A DNA stretch of 37,885 nt from NCBI GenBank assembly GCA_007695015.1, contig REEN01000045.1, forward strand, positions 1-37,885. The letters run 5' to 3'. A program made the position numbers and the translations under genes. This DNA comes from Marinilabiliales bacterium (GTDB lineage: Bacteria; Bacteroidota; Bacteroidia; Bacteroidales; PUMT01). The notes beneath the pieces were generated by a model. The model saw nothing but the letters and a program-made list of their open reading frames with translations, did no database searches and was not told where the DNA came from. Below are positions 28,724 to 37,717 of this stretch, one piece after another (the first letter of the stretch is position 1; every line of letters starts with the position of its first letter).

Positions 28724-29269
28724 TCAGCCTTCACATTCACACCCTTCGATATTTATAACGAATCTTTGAGAAATCTCAGTAGGTCCGTTAAAAGCAGCTC
28801 TGGCTTTAACGATAATAAAATATTCCATATCCAGCCACTCAAGGTCTCCGGTTAGCTCTTTGGGTGTTTTGTCATTGTCGTAAGTTGCACCGGTTACAAT
28901 TCTTGCATCAAAATCAACAAGGCCGGGATCCTCAAACTCAGTCTGGTTAAGCATGGTTATTGAATTATGAGAATTAATCTCTGCGTCGGATAATTCAGAG
29001 TTACCCCGTACCAGTCCGATATACAACTGCGCAACAGCAGTTGAATGGCTTACAGTCCCCGCAATATTGATCGTATAGCCTTTCATGAAAGACTGCCCGT
29101 CTTCCGGTGATCTGGTAATGGTTATTACAGGTGCTTCTGTTACATCAGGTGCCAGGATTTCAGAACTGATATTTTCAGGATCCATCATCTCTTCTTTCTC
29201 GCATGCTGCCAGGAAGAAGGTGACCGACAGTAAAACAATAAGTGATCTGAGGTAGTTTGCAGCTTTCAT
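28724..29269 (-). CDS. Uncharacterised lipoprotein with Ig-like C-terminal region
   Basis: The 181-residue protein has a lipoprotein signal ending LAAC (Cys23, followed by EKEE). The mature chain begins with a flexible acidic part and continues with ITITRSPEDGQSFMKGYTIN and alternating strands, which suggests an Ig-like beta sandwich, and ends with a short GCECEG tail with two cysteines. The lipobox-EKE pattern and strand pattern resemble the DUF4625 lipoproteins found further right in the window, but no clear His cluster is present, so I do not assign it to that family. It is divergent from the DUF1684 gene across 170 bp. Confidence 0.7.
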   Translation of the reverse strand: MKAANYLRSLIVLLSVTFFLAACEKEEMMDPENISSEILAPDVTEAPVITITRSPEDGQSFMKGYTINIAGTVSHSTAVAQLYIGLVRGNSELSDAEINSHNSITMLNQTEFEDPGLVDFDARIVTGATYDNDKTPKELTGDLEWLDMEYFIIVKARAAFNGPTEISQRFVINIEGCECEG

Positions 29270-29439: not shown

Positions 29440-30333
29440 ATGTTACGAAATATAATTTTGCTTTCTGCGGTTGTATTCCTTTTCTTATCCGTCAGCCGCG
29501 GGAAAGACATGAGTCAATCTGAGTATGCCCGGCATATTGCCGAATGGGATTCGGCCAGGTTGCACAATCTTAAGTCCCCCACCGGATGGGCAAACCTGGC
29601 GGGACTTTTCTGGCTTCGCGAGGGTACGAACACCATAGGGTCGGCATCGGGCAATACTATTGTTTTTCCGAGGGGGCCGGAAAAAATCGGGAGCATGACC
29701 CTGGATGACGGGAATGTTTCTTTTGCTCCTGCTGCAGGAGTCAGCATCAGCGCTGACGGAAGTGCTGTTGACGGCAATATTGTTATATTCGGAGAGGGAA
29801 GCGATGCCGGACTTCTGACAGTCGATTCCCTTGGTTTTTTTATTATAAGCCGGGGTGAAAGAGTTGGAATAAGGCTGCGGGACTATATCCATCCAAGGCT
29901 CGATTCCCTTCAGGTGATCGAAAGGTTTGCAGCGGACAAAGAATGGATCATACGTGCAAAATTTATTGAAGCGGAAAAGGATATGACGATCAATGTGCCC
30001 GACGTGCTGGGAGAGATATCAAGGGAGAGTGTGCCGGGAGTACTCGAGTTTGAAATGGATGGAGAAAATGTCAGGCTCTATCCGACCGGGAGCAGGGAGC
30101 GGCTGTTCGTAATCTTTGCCGATGAAACCAATGGTTTGGAGACATATGGCGGAGGGCGTTTTCTTTATGCAGACGGGCCTGATAAAGATGGCTACGTATA
30201 TCTGGATTTCAACAAGGCGTACAATCCGCCCTGCGCATTCTCACCATACGCCACCTGTCCCCTTCCCCCGGGAGAGAACTACCTCACCTTCGGGATATAT
30301 GCAGGCGAGAAGGCGGTACCATTCATCTTCTGA
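29440..30333 (+). CDS. DUF1684 domain protein, secreted
   Basis: The 297-residue protein has a short signal peptide (LLSAVVFLFLSVSRG) and then the DUF1684 pattern: HIAEWDSARLHNLKSPTGW, LAGLFWLREGTNTIGS, and near the end FNKAYNPPCAFSPYATCPLP, all hallmark segments. DUF1684 proteins are common in Bacteroidota and some actinobacteria, with no established function. The two Cys in the NPPCAFSPYATCPLP segment are part of the conserved motif. It is a single-gene unit. The coding end at 30333 is followed by a strong hairpin near 30380. Confidence 0.88.
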   Translation: MLRNIILLSAVVFLFLSVSRGKDMSQSEYARHIAEWDSARLHNLKSPTGWANLAGLFWLREGTNTIGSASGNTIVFPRGPEKIGSMTLDDGNVSFAPAAGVSISADGSAVDGNIVIFGEGSDAGLLTVDSLGFFIISRGERVGIRLRDYIHPRLDSLQVIERFAADKEWIIRAKFIEAEKDMTINVPDVLGEISRESVPGVLEFEMDGENVRLYPTGSRERLFVIFADETNGLETYGGGRFLYADGPDKDGYVYLDFNKAYNPPCAFSPYATCPLPPGENYLTFGIYAGEKAVPFIF

Positions 30334-30500: not shown

Positions 30501-30998
30501 TCATGGCCTGACAGCCAGCTTGATGCTTATACCCCTGATAGCCTGCCAGCCCGTTTTGTCGGTAAGCCTGACCATCAGGTGATAGTCCCCGTCATCAACA
30601 CCTTCAGGCACCATGATCTCCTGTTCAGCTTGATACCCGGTTTTCCCTTCAGGAATGTCAAACTGCTCTATGAACAGGAAGGGGTTTGCCGGTGTTTTAA
30701 CGGGATCCATCGGACAATCGGACATTTCAGTACTATGCGAATGGTGATCAAAATTGTGGTGAATGTCTATTGAATAGGAGCCAAGCTCAAAATTGTCAGT
30801 AAAACGGGCACTGAATCTAAAAGCTTCGCCAATATAGACCGTATCACAGTTTTGGGGAAAATGGTTTGCACCGGTCATATCTATGACAGGTAACTCAGTG
30901 TCCTTTTCTTCCTTTTCGCACGACGCAATTATTACTGAAACCACAAGACAAATAACTGAGATCCATCTGCCATTAATCGGTTTGTTGTACCAATCCAT
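30501..30998 (-). CDS. DUF4625 lipoprotein with His cluster
   Basis: The product (165 residues from this start) has a lipoprotein signal ending IIASC followed by EKEEKD, then a DUF4625 domain: a first part LPVIDMTGANHFPQNCDTVY, a second FRFSARFTDNFELGSYSIDI followed by the cluster HHNFDHHSH, and a later GDYHLMVRLTDKTGWQ. The family is a periplasmic/outer-membrane beta sandwich. I use the ATG at 30998 because it leaves a 27-residue lipoprotein signal; an upstream ATG at 31040, three bases after the previous stop, would add 14 residues. The gene is the last of a four-gene minus-strand row with the TonB-dependent receptor, and the histidine cluster suggests a metal-binding role. Confidence 0.85.
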   Translation of the reverse strand: MDWYNKPINGRWISVICLVVSVIIASCEKEEKDTELPVIDMTGANHFPQNCDTVYIGEAFRFSARFTDNFELGSYSIDIHHNFDHHSHSTEMSDCPMDPVKTPANPFLFIEQFDIPEGKTGYQAEQEIMVPEGVDDGDYHLMVRLTDKTGWQAIRGISIKLAVRP

Positions 30999-31042
30999 AA
31001 TCACTAATTTAGAGTTTTCTGCACGCTTATGCCGCTTCACAG

Positions 31043-31504
31043 TTACCCTGCAGCCGGTTCGAGTACCTCAAGGTCTTCTTCAATTTCAGCCGTGTAGCCT
31101 TCCATGTCGATCACCTTAAAATGGAAATGGTATTCGCCGGGTTCGGCGTCTGCCGGCACATCAATATGTTCATGGAATGAGGTATTTTTCAGGCCCCTGA
31201 ACTTGTCCATGGTTATATCAACTTCCCATTCATGATGGTGGTCGCCATTGCCAATAATGATGGTTTTTTTGTGATACCCTTCAAAATGGATCTCTATTAC
31301 GATAACATCTATCCCGTTTTCAGCCCGTATATCGGCATCAATATGAAGTTCACTGCCTGCATGGACCGTCTTGCTGTTATCATGGCCCAGTTCAAAATTC
31401 CGGATCTCGGGCATCTTTATTTCATCCTTCTCGCATGAAACTGCAGCCATTGTGATTGCAAGTATTATAAAGAATCTTGTCATATCTGATATTCTGTTTT
31501 GCAT
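31043..31504 (-). CDS. DUF4625 lipoprotein with His clusters
   Basis: The 153-residue protein has a lipoprotein signal with lipobox AAVSC (Cys24) followed by EKDE. The DUF4625-like domain contains VHAGSELHIDADI, VIEIHFEGYHKKT, then GNGDHHHEWEVDITMD and HEHIDVPADAEPGEYHFHFK, a remarkable concentration of histidines on predicted strands and loops. A second possible start, Met8 (31483), would still give a lipoprotein signal. It is paralogous in pattern to the downstream gene and sits 45 bp downstream of the TonB-dependent receptor, so a surface or periplasmic metal chaperone is likely. Which metal it binds is unknown. Confidence 0.87.
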   Translation of the reverse strand: MQNRISDMTRFFIILAITMAAVSCEKDEIKMPEIRNFELGHDNSKTVHAGSELHIDADIRAENGIDVIVIEIHFEGYHKKTIIIGNGDHHHEWEVDITMDKFRGLKNTSFHEHIDVPADAEPGEYHFHFKVIDMEGYTAEIEEDLEVLEPAAG

Positions 31505-31549
31505 CTCTATTGAATTTAGTTTGTTAGTAAAATCATTTTTAAAATCATG

Positions 31550-33967
31550 CTAATTTGCGACGGATAACGGCACCTTAACCGACAAAATAAAGTTCCTGCC
31601 GGACTCGGGTGCATTTATCAGCCTGTAATAGCTTACGTGATTGAAGTACTTTCTGTTCAGGAGGTTCTGAACCCTTATGTTGATATCCAGCTCCGTGTTG
31701 TTAAACTTGAAAGTCCCTCCTGCCGAAAGGTGAAGAAGCTCATAAGCCGGAGTCTCCTTTTCAGGGGGTACTATTCTTGACTGTTTGAGTGTATACACCA
31801 ATTCAACTCCTGCATACGGGTCATTTAATAGGCCTTTCCCTTTCGGGGAATATAACAGATTCAGCCTTACAGACGGAGCAGGGGAGAAGGGTATGGTAAA
31901 TCCCTTTTTGTTTCCCGAGAGCTGCTCAGCATAAATGTAGTCGCCAGTCAGCTCTGCAACAAGGAAGCGCAGCGGCCTGTATCTCAGCCTCACTTCCCCT
32001 CCGGTCCTCAACACCTCATTCTGAACATATTCAAATATCTGGTTGCCCGCTCCGTAAAGAAAATCATGCCTGTATGTCGGGTCCAGGTAAATATAATCCG
32101 GCGAATAGCTGACAAACGGACTCACCTCTGCACGAAAATCACCTGCATCATAGCCGGCATTCAGATCCAGTTGCCAGGACACCTCGGCATCAAGTGAGCT
32201 GTCGCCCTTTTCATATCTGAAATAGTGGTAGTTGACACCGTTTGCCGCAAGCTCTTTCGGAGTTGGCATCCTGAACCCTTTGCCGGCGTTTGCCTTCAGA
32301 AAAAGGTTGCTGCCACTGTAGATAAAACCTGCCGACAGGCTGAGACTGCCGAATTCCCTGTCAAGAGCTTCCGCCCTCGTAAGAAACACCTCCTCATACT
32401 CACCAGTTCCAGGGTTCTCAACGGGAGTAGCGAACCAGTCCACGTCCTCCCGGGTCTGCACCCTCCCGTAATCGTACCTTATCCCCGTGTGCAGACTTGT
32501 ATGCCTGCCTGTATTTATCCTGTTATAAAGGTACACGCCGGTATTGAATTGCGTGAAATCAGGAATAATAAAGGCGTACCCTCCCGTGCTGTTATCCTGG
32601 TACCCTGCATTGAGTCCCAGTGAAACACTGTGCCGGTTACCAGCCTCAAAGAAATTCCTGACATTAAGCGAAAAAATATCTTTTTCGAACTCCCTCTCCA
32701 GGTGGGGCGGCCCGTCTGGAGTACCGGGAAAAACAGCCGGCATATAACCGTGATTTACATAATGGTTATTCTCCTGCCTGAAGTTTTTCTGGTAACCAGC
32801 TTCGCTTTCCAGCCTGTATATGCCTTTTTCCCAGGTAGTATGTCCCATCAACTTGAGATGGCTTACATTCTGTGACGGAAACAGAATGTCCCTGTCCGAC
32901 TCGTCATACAGGTCAGTATCCACCCTCCTGGGCTCCAGTCCGTGCGCATTGGCAAAAAAGCCGCTTCTGCTGGTTACGGCCGAGGCAGATAACCGCGCTA
33001 ATAAACCCGGAACAAGATACCCGGCCGAAGCGTGCAGATTCATCTCTTTTCCCGCCGTATTCCTGAGCCTCCGGTCATTCAGCATTACGTGGTACGAATA
33101 AATTTCGACGCTGTCAGCCGGTATCCTGTAGTCGGCATAGTCCAGAGCTGTAAAGCGTGATGTAATGAAAAACCGCTTACTCCTTCCCGCCAGCCAGGCC
33201 GAACCGCCAATCAGGTTATTGTTGCTTCTGCCGGTCAGCTCTATACTCCCCGAAAGGGTGCCGGCAGCAGGTACCGGGTCCTGGTGAATACGCAGCACCC
33301 CGCCTATGGCATCTGATCCGTACAATACCGAAGCGGGACCTTTAACTACCTCTATCCTCTCAACCGCATACTGGTCAATTTCCAGTCCGTGATCCGCTCC
33401 CCATTGTTGCCCCTCATGTCTTATGCCGTTTTCAACCACCACTATACGATTGAAACCCAAACCTCTGATAAGTGGTTTCGAGTGTCCTGACCCGATCTCT
33501 ATCGAACTGATACCTGGTATGGCCGACAGTGAGGTCATCAGGCTGCCTCCCCTGTTCATCTCAAGATAAACCCTGTCGGCCGTTTCGGTAGTAACCGGCT
33601 CATTTCTTCTTCTTAAATCTGAGAAATTGTTCACGATGGTTACTTCAGGCAGAACCCCGGGCTGCCGCTCCATGACAATCAATATTTCCGTATCCGCCTG
33701 CGGTATCTCTATCTTTTCAACAGTTTCCCTGTAGCCAAGGTGCGAAACCGACAAATACAGACTGTCGCCGGCAGTGGCAGAAAAACCAAAACGGCCGTCA
33801 GGGCCGGAAACGGCAATAAGAATGCCGTACCCGTCAGAAACGACGGCTCCTGAAAGGGGCTGCAGATCGCTGTCCAGCACCCTTCCCCTTATATAAACCT
33901 TTTCCTGTGCCGCTGTGTATGCAAGTAACATACCAGATGCCAGCACAAGGCATAGCAACCTTCTCAT
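31550..33967 (-). CDS. TonB-dependent receptor with carboxypeptidase-like N-terminal domain
   Basis: The 805-residue outer-membrane receptor has a signal peptide (cleavage after TAAQ, residue 21), a carboxypeptidase-regulatory-like beta sandwich (about 25-100: VYIRGRVLDSDLQPLSGAVV), a plug with SLMTSLSAIPGISSIEIGSG and GHSKPLIRGLGFNRIVVVEN, VERIEVVKGPASVLYGSDAI, and a 22-strand-type barrel to the C-terminus. The plug segment IRHEGQQWGADHGLEID is typical of receptors for small or metal cargo, and no SusD partner is present, arguing against glycan import. A loop with NNHYVNHGY may be a metal-contact region. It is co-directional with two His-rich DUF4625 lipoproteins and a His/Cys-rich membrane protein. 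The likely cargo is a metal ion or chelate (inference). Confidence 0.93.
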   Translation of the reverse strand: MRRLLCLVLASGMLLAYTAAQEKVYIRGRVLDSDLQPLSGAVVSDGYGILIAVSGPDGRFGFSATAGDSLYLSVSHLGYRETVEKIEIPQADTEILIVMERQPGVLPEVTIVNNFSDLRRRNEPVTTETADRVYLEMNRGGSLMTSLSAIPGISSIEIGSGHSKPLIRGLGFNRIVVVENGIRHEGQQWGADHGLEIDQYAVERIEVVKGPASVLYGSDAIGGVLRIHQDPVPAAGTLSGSIELTGRSNNNLIGGSAWLAGRSKRFFITSRFTALDYADYRIPADSVEIYSYHVMLNDRRLRNTAGKEMNLHASAGYLVPGLLARLSASAVTSRSGFFANAHGLEPRRVDTDLYDESDRDILFPSQNVSHLKLMGHTTWEKGIYRLESEAGYQKNFRQENNHYVNHGYMPAVFPGTPDGPPHLEREFEKDIFSLNVRNFFEAGNRHSVSLGLNAGYQDNSTGGYAFIIPDFTQFNTGVYLYNRINTGRHTSLHTGIRYDYGRVQTREDVDWFATPVENPGTGEYEEVFLTRAEALDREFGSLSLSAGFIYSGSNLFLKANAGKGFRMPTPKELAANGVNYHYFRYEKGDSSLDAEVSWQLDLNAGYDAGDFRAEVSPFVSYSPDYIYLDPTYRHDFLYGAGNQIFEYVQNEVLRTGGEVRLRYRPLRFLVAELTGDYIYAEQLSGNKKGFTIPFSPAPSVRLNLLYSPKGKGLLNDPYAGVELVYTLKQSRIVPPEKETPAYELLHLSAGGTFKFNNTELDINIRVQNLLNRKYFNHVSYYRLINAPESGRNFILSVKVPLSVAN

Positions 33968-34019
33968 TATACTGGAAGAATTACACTAAGTGGTGAGGAA
34001 TTTTTTGAGTAAGATGTTT

Positions 34020-34490
34020 TCAGGAGAGGAGTGGAGGGGCACGCAGCAGTTTGTGGTTGCCTGTATATAGAATGGCAGGCTCCCGGTAAAAGAAAGGATA
34101 TATTACAGATATTATATCTTCAGTAAAGAAGATATATACGGAATAATCAAGGCTGAATTTTGCAAGTTCAAAATCACATAGAGGACACTCCTCATGCAAA
34201 TGAGTAAATTCCTGCCCGTTAAAAACAGGTGAAACCGGCTCATGGAGAGTATCATTTTCGCCGGCTCTATCTGTACCGGCCAGCGTATGATGTTTTTGGC
34301 CGTGTCTGATGGTATGGCTGCAACAACCTGCATGTGCCGGACACGAATTACTGCTTTCCTGAGCTATTCCATGAATATGGCCGGCATCATGATGGTGGTC
34401 ATGGAAGATAATATGCAGCGTTTGTGAAACAAACGGGAACATTATCAGTGCCGTGAGCAGAAGTGCCTTGTGCCGGGTGAATTTATCCAC
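34020..34490 (-). CDS. His/Cys-rich membrane-anchored protein, putative metal-binding
   Basis: The 156-residue protein begins with a hydrophobic segment (residues 9-28) followed directly by HIIFHDHHHDAGHIHG (residues 26-41). It then has CPAHAGCCSHTIRHGQKHH (residues 50-68), a segment HLHEECPLCDFE (97-108) that looks like half of a zinc-ribbon site, and a second hydrophobic region near 115-135. There are five cysteines and more than fifteen histidines in 156 residues. I do not recognise a named family. It is the first gene of the minus-strand receptor operon, 52 bp upstream of the receptor gene. A zinc, nickel or copper role is inferred; the protein could be a metallochaperone or a sensor. Confidence 0.8.
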   Translation of the reverse strand: MDKFTRHKALLLTALIMFPFVSQTLHIIFHDHHHDAGHIHGIAQESSNSCPAHAGCCSHTIRHGQKHHTLAGTDRAGENDTLHEPVSPVFNGQEFTHLHEECPLCDFELAKFSLDYSVYIFFTEDIISVIYPFFYREPAILYTGNHKLLRAPPLLS

Positions 34491-34518
34491 GCTTCAAATT
34501 AATTCAGGTATGCAGATG

Positions 34519-34526
34519 CAAAATTA
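34519..34526 (-). promoter_or_regulatory. Possible -7 element for the receptor operon
   Basis: On the minus strand TAATTTTG (34526-34519) matches TAnnTTTG 28 bp upstream of the His/Cys-rich protein start (34490). No upstream TTG at the expected distance was seen, which would fit an activator-dependent or weak promoter. Confidence 0.45.
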
Positions 34527-34559
34527 TACAAAGAAAACTTATCTGCCTACCATTCATGC

Positions 34560-34591
34560 ACAATAATACATGTACACTATTGTTATCAATA
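34560..34591. promoter_or_regulatory. Nested inverted repeats, candidate operator
   Basis: ACAATA (34560-34565) pairs with TATTGT (34578-34583) across a spacer that contains the perfect palindrome TACATGTA (34567-34574). TATTG (34578-34582) also pairs with CAATA (34587-34591) as TATTG-TTAT-CAATA. The dyads lie between two divergent -7 boxes and would overlap the -33 region of the plus-strand promoter. The binding regulator is unknown. Confidence 0.45.
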
Positions 34592-34609
34592 TAATTTGAA
34601 GGATATTCC

Positions 34610-34617
34610 TATCTTTG
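34610..34617 (+). promoter_or_regulatory. -7 element for the hemerythrin-like gene
   Basis: TATCTTTG is a full match to TAnnTTTG, 65 bp before the start at 34683. Its upstream -33 position falls on the CAATA end of the inverted repeat rather than a TTG, so regulation there is plausible. Confidence 0.5.
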
Positions 34618-34682
34618 CTTTTAAATATCAAGATATGTACAATTATGTGTGGCCGTAGCACACCTGATAACCTGATACACTT

Positions 34683-35390
34683 ATGATAAATTATAAGATT
34701 ACCGGAGAGATGAAGCTTTCCGATATAGTTGACAGCGACAAGAGGGCGCTCGTTTTATTCCCGAGGTTCGGTATCGAGCCTGGTTTCGGCGACCATAATG
34801 TTGAAGAGGTATGCCTGAAAAGAGGCGTTGACCTGCAGTTTTTTTTGTTGATGGTCAACACCTTTCTCAACCCTGATTACTTCCCTGACAAACAGCTGAA
34901 GCGGGTTGATGTGGATATGCTGATCAGCTACCTTGCTGAATCGCACAATTACTATCTTGAAGAGAAAATTCCATACCTTCAGTCACTTATAAATAACTTT
35001 AAAAACAGGGTCGATCACCCTGCTGTATTACAGCTTGAAAAATTTTTCGACCAGTATATCGATGAGGTCAGGGATCACCTGGCGTATGAGGATGAGACGG
35101 CCTTCCCCTATATGGAACGGATATCCGCTTACGGCAAGTCACGCCTGCCTCTTGAGAAGATTGACTACTCGGTAGATGTATTTGAAGAGAGGCATGACAA
35201 TATCCAGGAGAAACTGTCTGATTTGAAGAATCTCCTCGTAAAATACTTTCCTCCGGCGGGAGACCGGTATATACGTATCAGGTTGCTGAACGAGCTGATT
35301 GATTTCGAGGAGGACCTGATAAACCATGCAAGGATTGAAGATAAGGTCCTTATCCCTGTTGTCAGGCAGCTCGAAAAACAGGTCAGGTAA
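34683..35390 (+). CDS. Hemerythrin-domain protein resembling RIC/ScdA, Cys-Cys motif absent
   Basis: The 235-residue cytoplasmic protein has an N-terminal DUF542-like region (residues 8-60: MKLSDIVDSDKRALVLFPRF) and a C-terminal four-helix hemerythrin-like domain. Likely diiron ligands are H88, H132/E136 (DHLAYEDE), H171 (ERHDN) and H215/E219 (NHARIEDK). In RIC/ScdA iron-sulfur repair proteins the DUF542 part carries a Cys-Cys-Gly-Gly motif; here the position reads PGFGD (residues 33-37), so iron delivery in the usual way looks unlikely. The LuxR-type regulator follows after 20 bp, so it may serve as an oxygen, nitric oxide or iron sensor for that regulator. The family call is by motif pattern. 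Confidence 0.82.
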   Translation: MINYKITGEMKLSDIVDSDKRALVLFPRFGIEPGFGDHNVEEVCLKRGVDLQFFLLMVNTFLNPDYFPDKQLKRVDVDMLISYLAESHNYYLEEKIPYLQSLINNFKNRVDHPAVLQLEKFFDQYIDEVRDHLAYEDETAFPYMERISAYGKSRLPLEKIDYSVDVFEERHDNIQEKLSDLKNLLVKYFPPAGDRYIRIRLLNELIDFEEDLINHARIEDKVLIPVVRQLEKQVR

Positions 35391-35410
35391 CACCTTGTAA
35401 TTAATGAAAT

Positions 35411-36103
35411 ATGAGCCAAACCATTCTCATAGCAGAACAGTCTGAGATAATCAGGAAAGGGTTGGTCCAGATAACCGGAAATTTCAACCTGTTTGACAAT
35501 ATCCATGAAATTTCCTGTAGCTCGAGACTTAAAACTTCCCTGACAAGGCTTGAACCTGATGTGCTGGTTATAAATCCTGCGCTGATTGATCCTGAAATGC
35601 AGCAGTGGCTTGCCGGTTACCGTGACCGGAAGAACGGGTCAGGCGCAGTTGATACGGATGACGGCAATGAATATGGAGATAATCGTGAAAATACCGGAAA
35701 ATATGAAATTAAGCCGGGCTACTTCAGGATTGCTGCGATTATCCACACCCTCATTGATGATGAATTAAAAGATCTGTTTGATGAGGTGATCCAGGTAGGT
35801 GATACCGGCCTGAAGATCAGGGGTAAAATCAACTCTATGCTAAGCAGGCCCGCTTCACCGGGCAGTCCCGTACATGATGATACATTGTCCAGCCGCGAAA
35901 AAGACGTTGTCAGGCTCCTGGCCAGGGGTTTGAGCAACAAAGAGATCTCCGAAGAGCTGTTTATCAGTCCCCACACAGTCATAACCCACCGCAAGAACAT
36001 AACCCGCAAACTCAATATTAAGTCCGTCGCCGGACTGATTGTATATGCCATCATCAACGGGATAGTCAATGTTGATGAATTGCATGATAATGGAAATGTA
36101 TAG
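35411..36103 (+). CDS. LuxR-type regulator with degenerate receiver domain
   Basis: The 230-residue protein has a receiver-like N-terminal domain and a C-terminal LuxR helix-turn-helix (about residues 157-215: LSSREKDVVRLLARGLSNKE and ISPHTVITHRKNITRKLNIK). In the receiver, the usual acidic pair reads E9-Q10 (ILIAEQSE) and the phospho-acceptor aspartate is replaced by Asn55 (DVLVINPAL). It therefore probably does not take part in normal phosphotransfer. An acidic, Gly/Asn-rich insert of about 30 residues follows near 72-100. No histidine kinase is nearby; its operon partner is the hemerythrin-like protein, and control of it through protein contact is an inference. Confidence 0.87.
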   Translation: MSQTILIAEQSEIIRKGLVQITGNFNLFDNIHEISCSSRLKTSLTRLEPDVLVINPALIDPEMQQWLAGYRDRKNGSGAVDTDDGNEYGDNRENTGKYEIKPGYFRIAAIIHTLIDDELKDLFDEVIQVGDTGLKIRGKINSMLSRPASPGSPVHDDTLSSREKDVVRLLARGLSNKEISEELFISPHTVITHRKNITRKLNIKSVAGLIVYAIINGIVNVDELHDNGNV

Positions 36104-36159: not shown

Positions 36160-37149
36160 ATGAGAACCCTCTGTTTCATATTCTTTTTGATGCTTATTGC
36201 TGAAACTGGCCTTTATTCTCAACCATGCTGTGGTGCAATAGCCGGCGGGATGGGTACTGCCGGAGCAAGAATGGGCCTGGGTACTGCAGCTCCCGGTAAT
36301 TTTCAGATGCAGTTTGCATATGATTTCAATTATATGGACCGCCTGTATGATGGCACTGTAAGGCTTGAGAACAATGACCTGATCAGGGTAATTCATACCG
36401 GTGTACTTGAGGTCAACTATGGGATAAGCCGGAGGCTGTCTGTTGCTGCGATGGGTGCATATACGGGACAGGAGATCGGATCGCGGAGGATAGACGGCAG
36501 CAGGCAGGTTGACTATATATGGGGGTTCGGCGACATCATACTGATGGCCAAATACAGGCTTATGAACCCTCTTGCCTGGAGTGGCTGGGAAGTTGCTGCC
36601 GGGATAGGTCCGAAACTTCCGACCGGAAGCTACAGGCTTGCCGGTTCAGAGGGAGAGGAGTTCGGCATGGAAATACAACCCGGTACAGGTTCTTTTGACG
36701 GTATCTCCTGGCTCAGTATTTCCAAAACACACCTGTTCATTCCCAATCTCAACCTCAGATCTGGTGTTACTTTTCGTTATGCCGGGAAAAACACCGGTTA
36801 CCAGGGCTCCAGGGTTTACGATTTCGGCAATGAGATACAGGCAAGTGCAGGCCTCAGTTACAGTTTTTATGCCGGGATTAACTGGGACCTGTTCGGTTTT
36901 ACCAGGTACCGGTACCAGGGTACTGACATGCTTGACGGCGATCGCGTTGAAACAATCGGAGGGCAATGGCTTTTTGCTTCCCCGGGCATCGGTGCTGCAG
37001 TTACGCCGAACCTCTCACTCATGGTGCTTGCAGACATGCCCCTTTACCATGATATTAAGGGGCCACAGCTTACCTCATCTTTCAGGGTTTCAGCGGGAAT
37101 TGTTTACAATATATCTGCCCGGCAAACGGTTACCTTAGCAAACCATTGA
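36160..37149 (+). CDS. Outer-membrane beta-barrel-like protein with N-terminal Cys pair
   Basis: The product (329 residues from the ATG at 36160) starts with a good signal peptide (MRTLCFIFFLMLIAETGLYSQ). An upstream in-frame TTG at 36118 would put 14 polar residues before it and is rejected. The mature N-terminus reads PCCGAIAGGMGTAG, then the chain alternates short strands with Gly and aromatic residues (QMQFAYDFNYMDRLYDG; GISRRLSVAAMGAYTGQE; WGFGDIILMAKYRL; FRVSAGIVYNIS), as in small outer-membrane barrels of the phenol-degradation MetA-like or transporter group. Function is unknown. It converges with the ArsF-like gene with a 20-base overlap; the adjacent cysteines at the mature N-terminus and the CxxC of that neighbour may be functionally linked (inference). 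Confidence 0.75.
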   Translation: MRTLCFIFFLMLIAETGLYSQPCCGAIAGGMGTAGARMGLGTAAPGNFQMQFAYDFNYMDRLYDGTVRLENNDLIRVIHTGVLEVNYGISRRLSVAAMGAYTGQEIGSRRIDGSRQVDYIWGFGDIILMAKYRLMNPLAWSGWEVAAGIGPKLPTGSYRLAGSEGEEFGMEIQPGTGSFDGISWLSISKTHLFIPNLNLRSGVTFRYAGKNTGYQGSRVYDFGNEIQASAGLSYSFYAGINWDLFGFTRYRYQGTDMLDGDRVETIGGQWLFASPGIGAAVTPNLSLMVLADMPLYHDIKGPQLTSSFRVSAGIVYNISARQTVTLANH

Positions 37150-37717
37150 GGGAGTTCATAAGAGATTGTTCGAACCGGTCAGGATCACGCTCAACAAACC
37201 GGAAGGCGTCTCTTGTAAGGTTTACCGTCTCTTCTTCTGAAACCAGGAGGAGCAGTTGCCGCCTGACCCGCAGATCCCTGATAATTTCCTGTTCCTGGCT
37301 GTCAGGATCACTCAGATTTATTCTTCTGAATATCAGCCGTCCGTTCTCAATTTCTTCCAGGTAATGCTTGTCCAGTAATTCGCCGAGTGCTTTGTCCAGT
37401 ATCAGGCATTCATCACAACGGGGCACAAAGTAGAAGTAGTAAAGATAAGCCTGGTTATTACCGGCCGGAAGAGCTGCCGGCGTGGTGACAGATGAGATGG
37501 TGCTGCCGGCTGATATGTCTGTAAACCCGTTAGTAGCCCCGTTTGCAATTCCGACTGTATATCCGCCGGCATTGGAGCATGCAGGTCTGACCGGCACCGG
37601 AAGGGTTATCAGAAAGACAAAGAACAGTGCAGAAACCGCTATCCTGAACGCGGTAACCGGAAGAGGCGTCACGGACTGCTTCCCGGATGTGGTTATATTG
37701 TATATGTATTTCATCAT
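37130..37717 (-). CDS. Periplasmic thioredoxin-like protein of the ArsF family
   Basis: The 195-residue protein has a signal or anchor segment (residues about 25-47) and then a thioredoxin-like core with the segment LYYFYFVPRCDECLILDKAL, in which C101-D-E-C104 is the active-site CxxC motif, followed by helices and the strand GRLIFRRINLSDPD. The pattern resembles the family annotated as nitrophenyl compound nitroreductase subunit ArsF, whose biochemical role is poorly defined. The 30-residue Gly/Ser/Thr-rich segment (about 50-85) is a linker. It is transcribed toward the barrel-like gene, and its start is preceded by a -7-like box at 37764-37771. Confidence 0.75.
   Translation of the reverse strand: MMKYIYNITTSGKQSVTPLPVTAFRIAVSALFFVFLITLPVPVRPACSNAGGYTVGIANGATNGFTDISAGSTISSVTTPAALPAGNNQAYLYYFYFVPRCDECLILDKALGELLDKHYLEEIENGRLIFRRINLSDPDSQEQEIIRDLRVRRQLLLLVSEEETVNLTRDAFRFVERDPDRFEQSLMNSLNGLLR

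Follow-up and report, generated by a model that had tools for sequence, protein, structure and literature searches.

This report concerns a four-gene operon on contig REEN01000045.1 of a Marinilabiliales bacterium (assembly GCA_007695015.1), which we discuss as a likely TonB-powered system of zinc acquisition; the whole stretch analysed, 37,885 nucleotides long, is referred to as the window. The operon encodes, in order of transcription, a small His- and Cys-rich protein, a TonB-dependent receptor and two lipoproteins of DUF4625, a family of unassigned function, here called DUF4625-N and DUF4625-C (Table 1). A preliminary description, made from the DNA letters, had proposed such a unit, and the open reading frames from 34490 to 30501 confirm it; the intergenic gaps measure 52, 45 and 2 base pairs from 5' to 3'. 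Both lipoproteins exceed the Pfam gathering cut-off for DUF4625 (27 bits), the two His clusters singled out at the time, HHNFDHHSH and GDHHHEWE, are indeed found in the sequence, and the receptor does stand without SusD, no Pfam SusD match at E 0.1 having been obtained among the ten genes scanned between 28724 and 37717.

Table 1. Genes and regions of the operon and its immediate surroundings in the window.
Feature	Positions	Strand	Basis
Small His/Cys-rich protein gene, 156 residues, GTG start	34020-34490	minus	Open reading frame; first gene of operon; no Pfam family
TonB-dependent receptor gene, 805 residues, ZnuD-like	31550-33967	minus	Pfam plug and barrel
DUF4625-N lipoprotein gene, 153 residues	31043-31504	minus	Pfam DUF4625 (PF15418), 74.9 bits
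DUF4625-C lipoprotein gene, 179 residues, GTG start	30501-31040	minus	Pfam DUF4625 (PF15418), 142.5 bits
Possible fifth member, lipoprotein, 181 residues	28724-29269	minus	Homology to second domain of the L043 lipoprotein; membership inferred
Operon upstream region, common to the divergent hemerythrin-domain gene (34683)	34491-34682	minus	Sequence

For comparison, genome contigs were searched with the receptor; of the 238 relatives found the best 80 were kept, which together with the window gives 81 loci. Neighbouring genes were called as simple longest open reading frames round each receptor and clustered within five genes. Against 788 other proteins of these loci, the small proteins of the relatives included (mean His content 2.6%, 95th percentile 6.6%), the enrichment is strong in the small protein (17 of 156 residues, 10.9%) and in DUF4625-N (12 of 153, 7.8%), modest in DUF4625-C (8 of 179, 4.5%) and absent in the receptor (20 of 805, 2.5%). 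The earlier picture of a His-rich operon is therefore accurate for the small protein and the lipoproteins and does not extend to the receptor.

The receptor consists of a carboxypeptidase-regulatory-like N-terminal domain, which falls just below its Pfam cut-off, followed by plug and barrel. Its best match in the Protein Data Bank (PDB) is the neisserial zinc receptor ZnuD (4rdr), with E 4.6e-14 for the single sequence, followed by the heme receptor ShuA at 1e-7; with a 20-sequence profile ZnuD again leads, at E 5.6e-31, ahead of the next match at 1.1e-18. A predicted model of the receptor (mean predicted local distance difference test score, pLDDT, 76.7), whose residue numbers are those of the protein minus one since the first Met is omitted, lies closest to 4rdr and 4rdt. 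ZnuD fills the top three rows of the Foldseek search, with about 17% identity in the fold alignment, before PhuR, OprC and ChuA. The buried zinc of ZnuD is held by Asp99, His100, Glu340 and His499 (PMC4557270). In the alignment, D192-H193 of the window's receptor fall on Asp99-His100; the offset of 14 between published and chain numbering was deduced by hand and fits the Asp-His pair as well as His499. H193 is identical in all 81 receptors and D192 in 78, the other three carrying Glu, whereas ShuA has Leu-Asn at these columns. On these alignments we regard the receptor as a distant ZnuD relative and, by inference, as one that would work like ZnuD, though it fails formal membership of that family.

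The two lipoproteins may be the partners that bring metal to this receptor. In DUF4625-N the lipobox Cys is followed by E-K-D-E, and the protein carries the GDHHHEWE cluster together with YHFHF; in DUF4625-C the lipobox residue, Cys41, is followed by E-K-E-E. The optimal surface-export signal reported for Capnocytophaga is C-X-K-(D/E)2-X (PMC5080379), which both fit, as C-E-K-D-E and C-E-K-E-E. Because of this signal, both lipoproteins probably sit outside the cell as metal-capturing partners of the receptor. Metal capture at the surface and in the periplasm had been suggested for the locus; the signal agrees with the first of these places, and for the lipoproteins we found no evidence of the second. 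At least one acidic residue occurs at positions +3 to +6 after the lipobox Cys in 159 of 172 DUF4625-like neighbours across the 81 loci, and at least two in 114, with the Cys crudely placed and no control for these counts.

Seven residues of DUF4625-C are invariant in 33 orthologues, a set chosen for alignment: the lipobox Cys41, C65, H94, H100, H102, C109 and H154. In a wider set of 84 single-domain sequences, which includes other DUF4625 types, the four His are kept in 77 (H94), 72 (H100), 71 (H102) and 76 (H154). The His pattern appears to be more than chance, and the invariance of C65, C109 and the four His among the orthologues points to a single disulfide and a His site. The predicted model (mean pLDDT 88.5) is a beta sandwich of the immunoglobulin (Ig)/PKD-like kind, with matches to Ig, PKD and fibronectin type III-like domains at Z up to 10.2, none of them specific; a sequence search of the PDB yielded no solved relative (best E 0.14).

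Longer versions of these lipoproteins are common in the relatives: 66 of the 81 loci hold a DUF4625-like protein of more than 210 residues. One of them, the two-domain DUF4625 lipoprotein of locus L043, is 41% identical in its first domain to DUF4625-N, and its residues 145-281 match the lipoprotein encoded at 28724-29269 of the window (36% identity over 137 residues, E 5e-31). Given this fusion, the latter lipoprotein may be a fifth component of the system that was split off. Between its gene and the operon lies a DUF1684 protein gene on the opposite strand (29440-30333, plus).

The small protein combines an N-terminal hydrophobic segment, a His-rich middle, the CxxC motif ECPLC and a C-terminal RAPP. 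In an alignment of 70 family members H26, C102 and P152 are present in all 70, H30 and P153 in 69 and C105 in 68. DUF2946 was considered as a relative and rejected: the window's protein has no Pfam match to it, and two of 17 family members gave non-significant ones (best E 0.29).

The association of these genes is conserved. DUF4625-like genes, defined by a match at E 1e-3 to a profile of single-domain proteins, neighbour the receptor in 79 of the 81 loci, and the exceptions, L041 and L042, are contigs that end at the receptor. A protein with the motif H(H/N)NF(D/N)xHxH is found in 76 loci, and a small CxxC or CxxH protein with a RAPP- or GPP-like C-terminus in 72. In a separate survey of 296 genomes of the phylum, one that did not start from the receptor, DUF4625 passed the Pfam cut-off in 14. 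Twelve of them, among which is the window's own genome, have it next to a homologous receptor; G022 and G033, which do not, give the lowest scores of the 14 (43.1 and 27.8 bits). A small gene of the same shape adjoins in 11 of the 12, recognised in nine by the profile and in two by shape alone. For some DUF4625 copies of G162 and G182 (L132, L133) there is no neighbouring receptor. The preliminary description would have been refuted by a lack of co-occurrence in other genomes; both surveys found the linkage instead. A class-wide search with the receptor profile further returned matches at E 1e-100 or better in 66 of 247 genomes.

The identity of the metal we infer in part from the genes found around the operon in relatives. 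An AztD-like gene lies one to three places downstream of the receptor in 39 of the 81 loci, and one or two places downstream in 32. One such protein matches the NCBIfam AztD model with E 1e-22 over nearly its whole length, at 80.4 bits and below the strict cut-off of 400, and for another, AztD (6cmk) is the top PDB match at 2.3e-21. The transfer site of AztD comprises His99, His102, Asp104 and a C-terminal His (PMC6689063); the corresponding HGDHxD is kept in 35 of the 39 AztD-like proteins, and all 39 have a His among their last eight residues. No AztD-like gene lies beside the window's operon, which is not among these 39 loci.

Fur-family genes occur near the receptor in 11 of the 81 loci; in eight cases the gene shares the receptor's strand and lies one or two places upstream. 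NCBIfam gave no split into Fur, PerR or Zur for the seven of these proteins that were scanned. The regulator of G191 has its best PDB matches in the metal-uptake regulators 3mwm and 7vo0, which we take to be S. coelicolor Zur, and then in the zinc uptake regulator FurB of M. tuberculosis; the one at L081 matches Fur and PerR. In G182 and G191 the operon is adjoined by a Fur-family gene, MerC and a GTP cyclohydrolase I of the PF01227 type, with a cobW/COG0523 gene also present in G182. COG0523 proteins and GTP cyclohydrolases are typical members of Zur regulons, for which the available text of a review tabulates folE2 (PMC6103462). Zinc had been named as the first guess, ahead of nickel, cobalt and copper, and it is favoured over these by the ZnuD relationship, the AztD-type chaperones and the COG0523, ZIP, MerC and GTP cyclohydrolase neighbours.

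The regions upstream of the relatives' operons have in common a palindrome, ATTTGCAACAnTGTTGCAAAT. A weight matrix was built from 45 sites in 42 loci and a score of at least 18 counted as a hit; over the 81 loci, 92 hits fell in the 207,674 bases that make up the 2.6 kb stretches before the receptors, as against 14 in the remaining 896,371 bases (4.4 and 0.16 per 10 kb). The best hit of a locus lies within 300 base pairs upstream of an operon gene in 53 of the 81 loci, compared with a mean of 5.6 for 30 column-permuted palindromic motifs, one of which reached 25. As the motif was learned from the same loci as this control, a fairer test comes from 27 loci outside the motif training, taken from other genomes via the receptor profile, whose longest match to any of the 80 training loci spans at most 257 bases; L195-L197, which are the window and two genomes examined earlier, were excluded. 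Here 29 hits fell in 22 loci where 2.2 were expected at the outside rate, and 28 of the 29 lie in the interval from 300 bases before to 60 bases past the start of a gene for a receptor, a DUF4625-like, a Fur-family or a small protein, although four pairs of loci are close to each other, so that there are fewer than 27 independent cases.

Genome-wide, the pattern TTGCAACANTGTTGCA with up to two mismatches on both strands was found in eight relatives 18, 37, 26, 25, 21, 13, 31 and 31 times, against 7, 1, 2, 7, 3, 1, 10 and 9 for the reversed pattern. This control flatters the pattern, since CpG occurs only in the reversed version and the window's own genome also gives 11 to 1, and for that reason the case for an operator rests on the position counts. 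From about 150 listed sites we took 20 boxed stretches in six of the eight genomes (G359 and G361 excepted), those with no or one mismatch first. Four carry zinc-control genes behind the box: Fur/MerC (L177), Fur-cobW-MerC-cobW-ZIP (L179), MerC-cobW behind a short Fur-like frame (L183) and MerC (L174). MerC, cobW, ZIP and the Fur of L179 exceed their Pfam cut-offs, and the Fur of L177 reaches 22.9 bits of the 23.1 required. Five stretches hold a receptor or the system itself (L171, by eye, stands beside the system), two hold an oxidoreductase-like gene and nine neither. By its positions and these neighbours, the TTGCAACAnTGTTGCAA box looks like a Zur operator for much of the phylum.

Some further features concern the boxed sites. 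At L168 (626-3537), L173 (651-3563) and L172 (3534-6948) the same box also precedes other receptor-like genes, each of which follows a small His/CxxC-like protein (seen by eye), and this type of small protein may be a general partner of such receptors. A gene for an NAD(P)/FAD-oxidoreductase-like protein with HSHNF (by eye) stands just downstream of the box at L167 (3637-4545), L176 (3601-4509) and L177 (4020-4931); it thus occurs in three genomes, once behind MerC, and possibly represents a new member of the zinc-starvation regulon. Read in frame, the box gives LQHCC at the 5' end of over-extended open reading frames (L213, L216, L173, L177), so that automatic gene calling may place protein starts within the operator.

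In the window's own genome the control is probably different. The upstream region of the operon contains TATAATTTTGCAT, which fits the -7 element of Bacteroidota, whose consensus we take to be TAnnTTTG. The upstream regions of the nearest relatives (L039-L041, 62-65% receptor identity) have little in common beyond a -7-like element in some, and they too are without the box. The two-mismatch box sites of the genome (11, in nine distinct places, against 1 for the reversed pattern) were dismissed as operators, as the five that were read all lie inside predicted coding frames. An operator common to the operon and the genome's own znuA was likewise rejected: they share a single 9-mer, the promoter-like ATAATTTTG. 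A ZnuABC-type set is present (ZnuA at 203 bits, ATPase and permease read from sequence); the cobW family has one strong match of unassigned type and three weak ones, and no ZIP gene was found.

Considering the evidence together, we think it likely that the operon is a TonB-powered zinc-acquisition system in which DUF4625 lipoproteins capture the metal for a ZnuD-like receptor with the aid of a small His/CxxC helper, and which in relatives is often repressed by Zur. The DUF4625 lipoproteins would be exported to the outer face of the outer membrane, where their conserved His might bind or present Zn(II) and hand it over to the receptor. The receptor would accept zinc at a buried site of which D192-H193 form part, and the pull of TonB on the plug would release it to the periplasm. 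There the small His/CxxC protein, made first and probably facing the periplasm, could buffer or pass on the incoming metal, with AztD as an additional periplasmic buffer in other genera, before the ZnuABC of the genome would move it into the cytoplasm. In many relatives a Zur-type repressor is supposed to act at the TTGCAACAnTGTTGCAA box, while the window's clade would be controlled differently. What the sequences themselves show is which genes are present, the conservation of their order, the kinship with ZnuD and the box with the genes around it. For a wider proposal we see the chances as evenly balanced: that DUF4625 is a phylum-specific outer-membrane protein zincophore which docks on a ZnuD-type receptor, that the operon with its CxxC/RAPP partner is the standard high-affinity zinc route of many Bacteroidota under a hitherto undescribed Zur box, TTGCAACAnTGTTGCAA, and that the window's clade has retained the machinery and has no Zur control.

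A number of observations weigh against this interpretation. Concerning the receptor, it scores 102.4 bits with the NCBIfam ZnuD model, whose cut-off is 950, and 109.3 bits, also under cut-off, with a generic hemin-receptor model. Its invariant H581 lies two residues off the column of ZnuD His499, no equivalent of Glu340 was found in a region that is not aligned, and the model loops round the predicted zinc site are of low confidence (model residues 185-194, pLDDT below 50). The fold of DUF4625-C is an ordinary Ig/PKD-like one in which no metalloprotein is the clear best match. In the class-wide search, with 1.5 kb flanks around the best 30 loci, DUF4625-like genes are near the receptor in 19; set against 79 of 81 near loci, this means that close relatives keep DUF4625 and the receptor firmly linked and more distant ones less so. 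The same 30 loci contain Fur-family genes in seven cases and the small gene in five, by a strict pattern that misses several visible ones. The nine boxed stretches with neither a zinc-type nor a receptor gene also count here; they are mostly two-mismatch sites, L169 and L170 having one mismatch. Finally, no TTGCAACAnTGTTGCAA box precedes the window's operon (best upstream score -3.5), none with zero or one mismatch exists anywhere in its genome, and the single Fur-family gene of that genome adjoins purA (identified by eye). That this genome lacks both a second regulator and the operator fits the view that the box belongs to that regulator, although the assembly is a draft of 118 contigs, 98.5% complete, and could miss a gene. 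A survey for linkage to Zur- or Fur-type sites had been suggested at the outset: in relatives such linkage is seen as regulator genes and a conserved operator, and in the window's own clade the operator is missing.

The chief alternative to direct capture of the ion is that the DUF4625 lipoproteins bind a carrier of zinc, either a zincophore or a zinc-bearing protein or peptide, and that the receptor imports or strips the complex. Pairs of surface lipoprotein and receptor in Bacteroides bind whole ligands, the BtuB-BtuG and XusA-XusB pairs are among the fold matches of the receptor, and Ig-like folds presumably bind macromolecules as a rule. The four His and two Cys that, besides the lipobox Cys, are invariant in the 33 orthologues of DUF4625-C speak for a metal site on the lipoprotein itself, and we consider the carrier reading unlikely.

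That the imported metal is copper, nickel or cobalt, whether free or bound in a small complex, seems to us very improbable. His clusters bind these metals as well, the copper receptor OprC is among the top fold matches, and the small CxxC protein is reminiscent of the DUF2946 proteins that we take to lie beside copper receptors, notwithstanding the non-significant Pfam match given above. The only Cys of the window's receptor is C6 in the signal region, unlike the Cys/Met site that OprC presumably uses, and the AztD and Zur-type neighbours point to zinc.

We judge it highly improbable, too, that the operon serves the import of heme or iron(-siderophore) under Fur control, with hemophore-like lipoproteins. 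Plug and barrel motifs are common to heme receptors, the hemin-receptor model scores slightly above that of ZnuD with both under cut-off, the fold matches to PhuR, ChuA and ShuA are not far below ZnuD, the window's genome has one Fur-family regulator only, and ZnuD itself was initially mistaken for a heme receptor (PMC4557270). The Asp-His pair is nevertheless missing from ShuA, ZnuD ranks above heme receptors by sequence and by fold, and the identified neighbours in relatives (AztD, COG0523, MerC, ZIP) are zinc-type; no heme or siderophore gene was noticed near their operons, although no search was aimed at such genes. That the small protein and the lipoproteins instead sequester excess zinc or mercury for tolerance, as MerC-domain proteins among the neighbours or boxed genes and the capacity that His-rich proteins may have to buffer toxic metal could suggest, is hardly credible, as TonB receptors import and as COG0523 and ZIP, both part of the response to zinc starvation, are among the boxed genes.

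The zinc system proposed here shares individual parts with several known ones. To neisserial ZnuD (PDB 4rdr, 4rdt, 4rvw) it is connected by the best profile and fold match, the aligned Asp-His plug ligands and the zinc-starvation genes linked to related receptors; it differs in its low sequence identity, a score below the family cut-off, the extra N-terminal domain, and the linked lipoproteins and small CxxC/RAPP protein, neither of which is mentioned for ZnuD in the available text of PMC4557270. With BtuB-BtuG and XusA-XusB of Bacteroides it has in common a receptor without SusD accompanied by surface lipoproteins, and perhaps the principle of capture and hand-over; their ligands, however, are B12 and a siderophore, and BtuG and XusB are absent from the DUF4625-C fold matches listed, no direct comparison having been made. 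Like SusCD systems of Bacteroidota it pairs an outer-membrane TonB receptor with lipoproteins, but SusD is lacking and the SusC/RagA model gives 35.2 bits against a cut-off of 368. AztD (PDB 6cmk, 6ck1) has homologues near the receptor in relatives, as described above, whereas it is known as the partner of the AztABC transporter and none lies beside the window's operon. In relatives, the genes at boxed and adjacent loci agree with the table of Zur regulons (PMC6103462), with the differences that the table has folE2 where the relatives have the PF01227 type and that the window's genome yielded no Zur-like paralogue.

ZnuD-type receptors, AztD, COG0523 and Zur are thus already known. As far as our searches reach, no description exists of the CxxC/RAPP family, of the box or of a zinc system that includes DUF4625 lipoproteins: a literature search that excluded most subscription journals and all preprints gave no match for DUF4625, and among the records listed, judged by titles and the starts of abstracts, neither a DUF4625 zinc system nor a Zur system of Bacteroidota was found. 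The available portions of PMC10957091, PMC12574912 and PMC2770081 cover neither subject, and the main text of the Zur review, as far as available, contains no mention of Bacteroid- (PMC6103462), for which reason zinc control in this major gut and soil phylum seems little mapped. The present analysis offers a testable job for DUF4625 and for the unnamed CxxC/RAPP family, a proposal for the passage of zinc across the outer membrane of many Bacteroidota and a predicted Zur operator for the phylum. We speculate that surface lipoproteins which hold zinc, if they exist, could matter for the competition among gut commensals, pathogens and the zinc-withholding proteins of the host.

Some minor observations concern other genes. 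The divergent pair adjoining the operon (34683-36103, plus) encodes a hemerythrin/RIC-like protein of the iron-sulfur repair type, below its NCBIfam cut-off, and a LuxR-type regulator. The gene at 37130-37717 (minus) matches NCBIfam ArsF, a nitrophenyl nitroreductase subunit family, with 50.3 bits and below the cut-off of 60. In L184 (G356, contig C29, 256-5202) the peptide VSIPVWCDYK is repeated in many short frames, which marks a direct-repeat array similar to clustered regularly interspaced short palindromic repeats (CRISPR).

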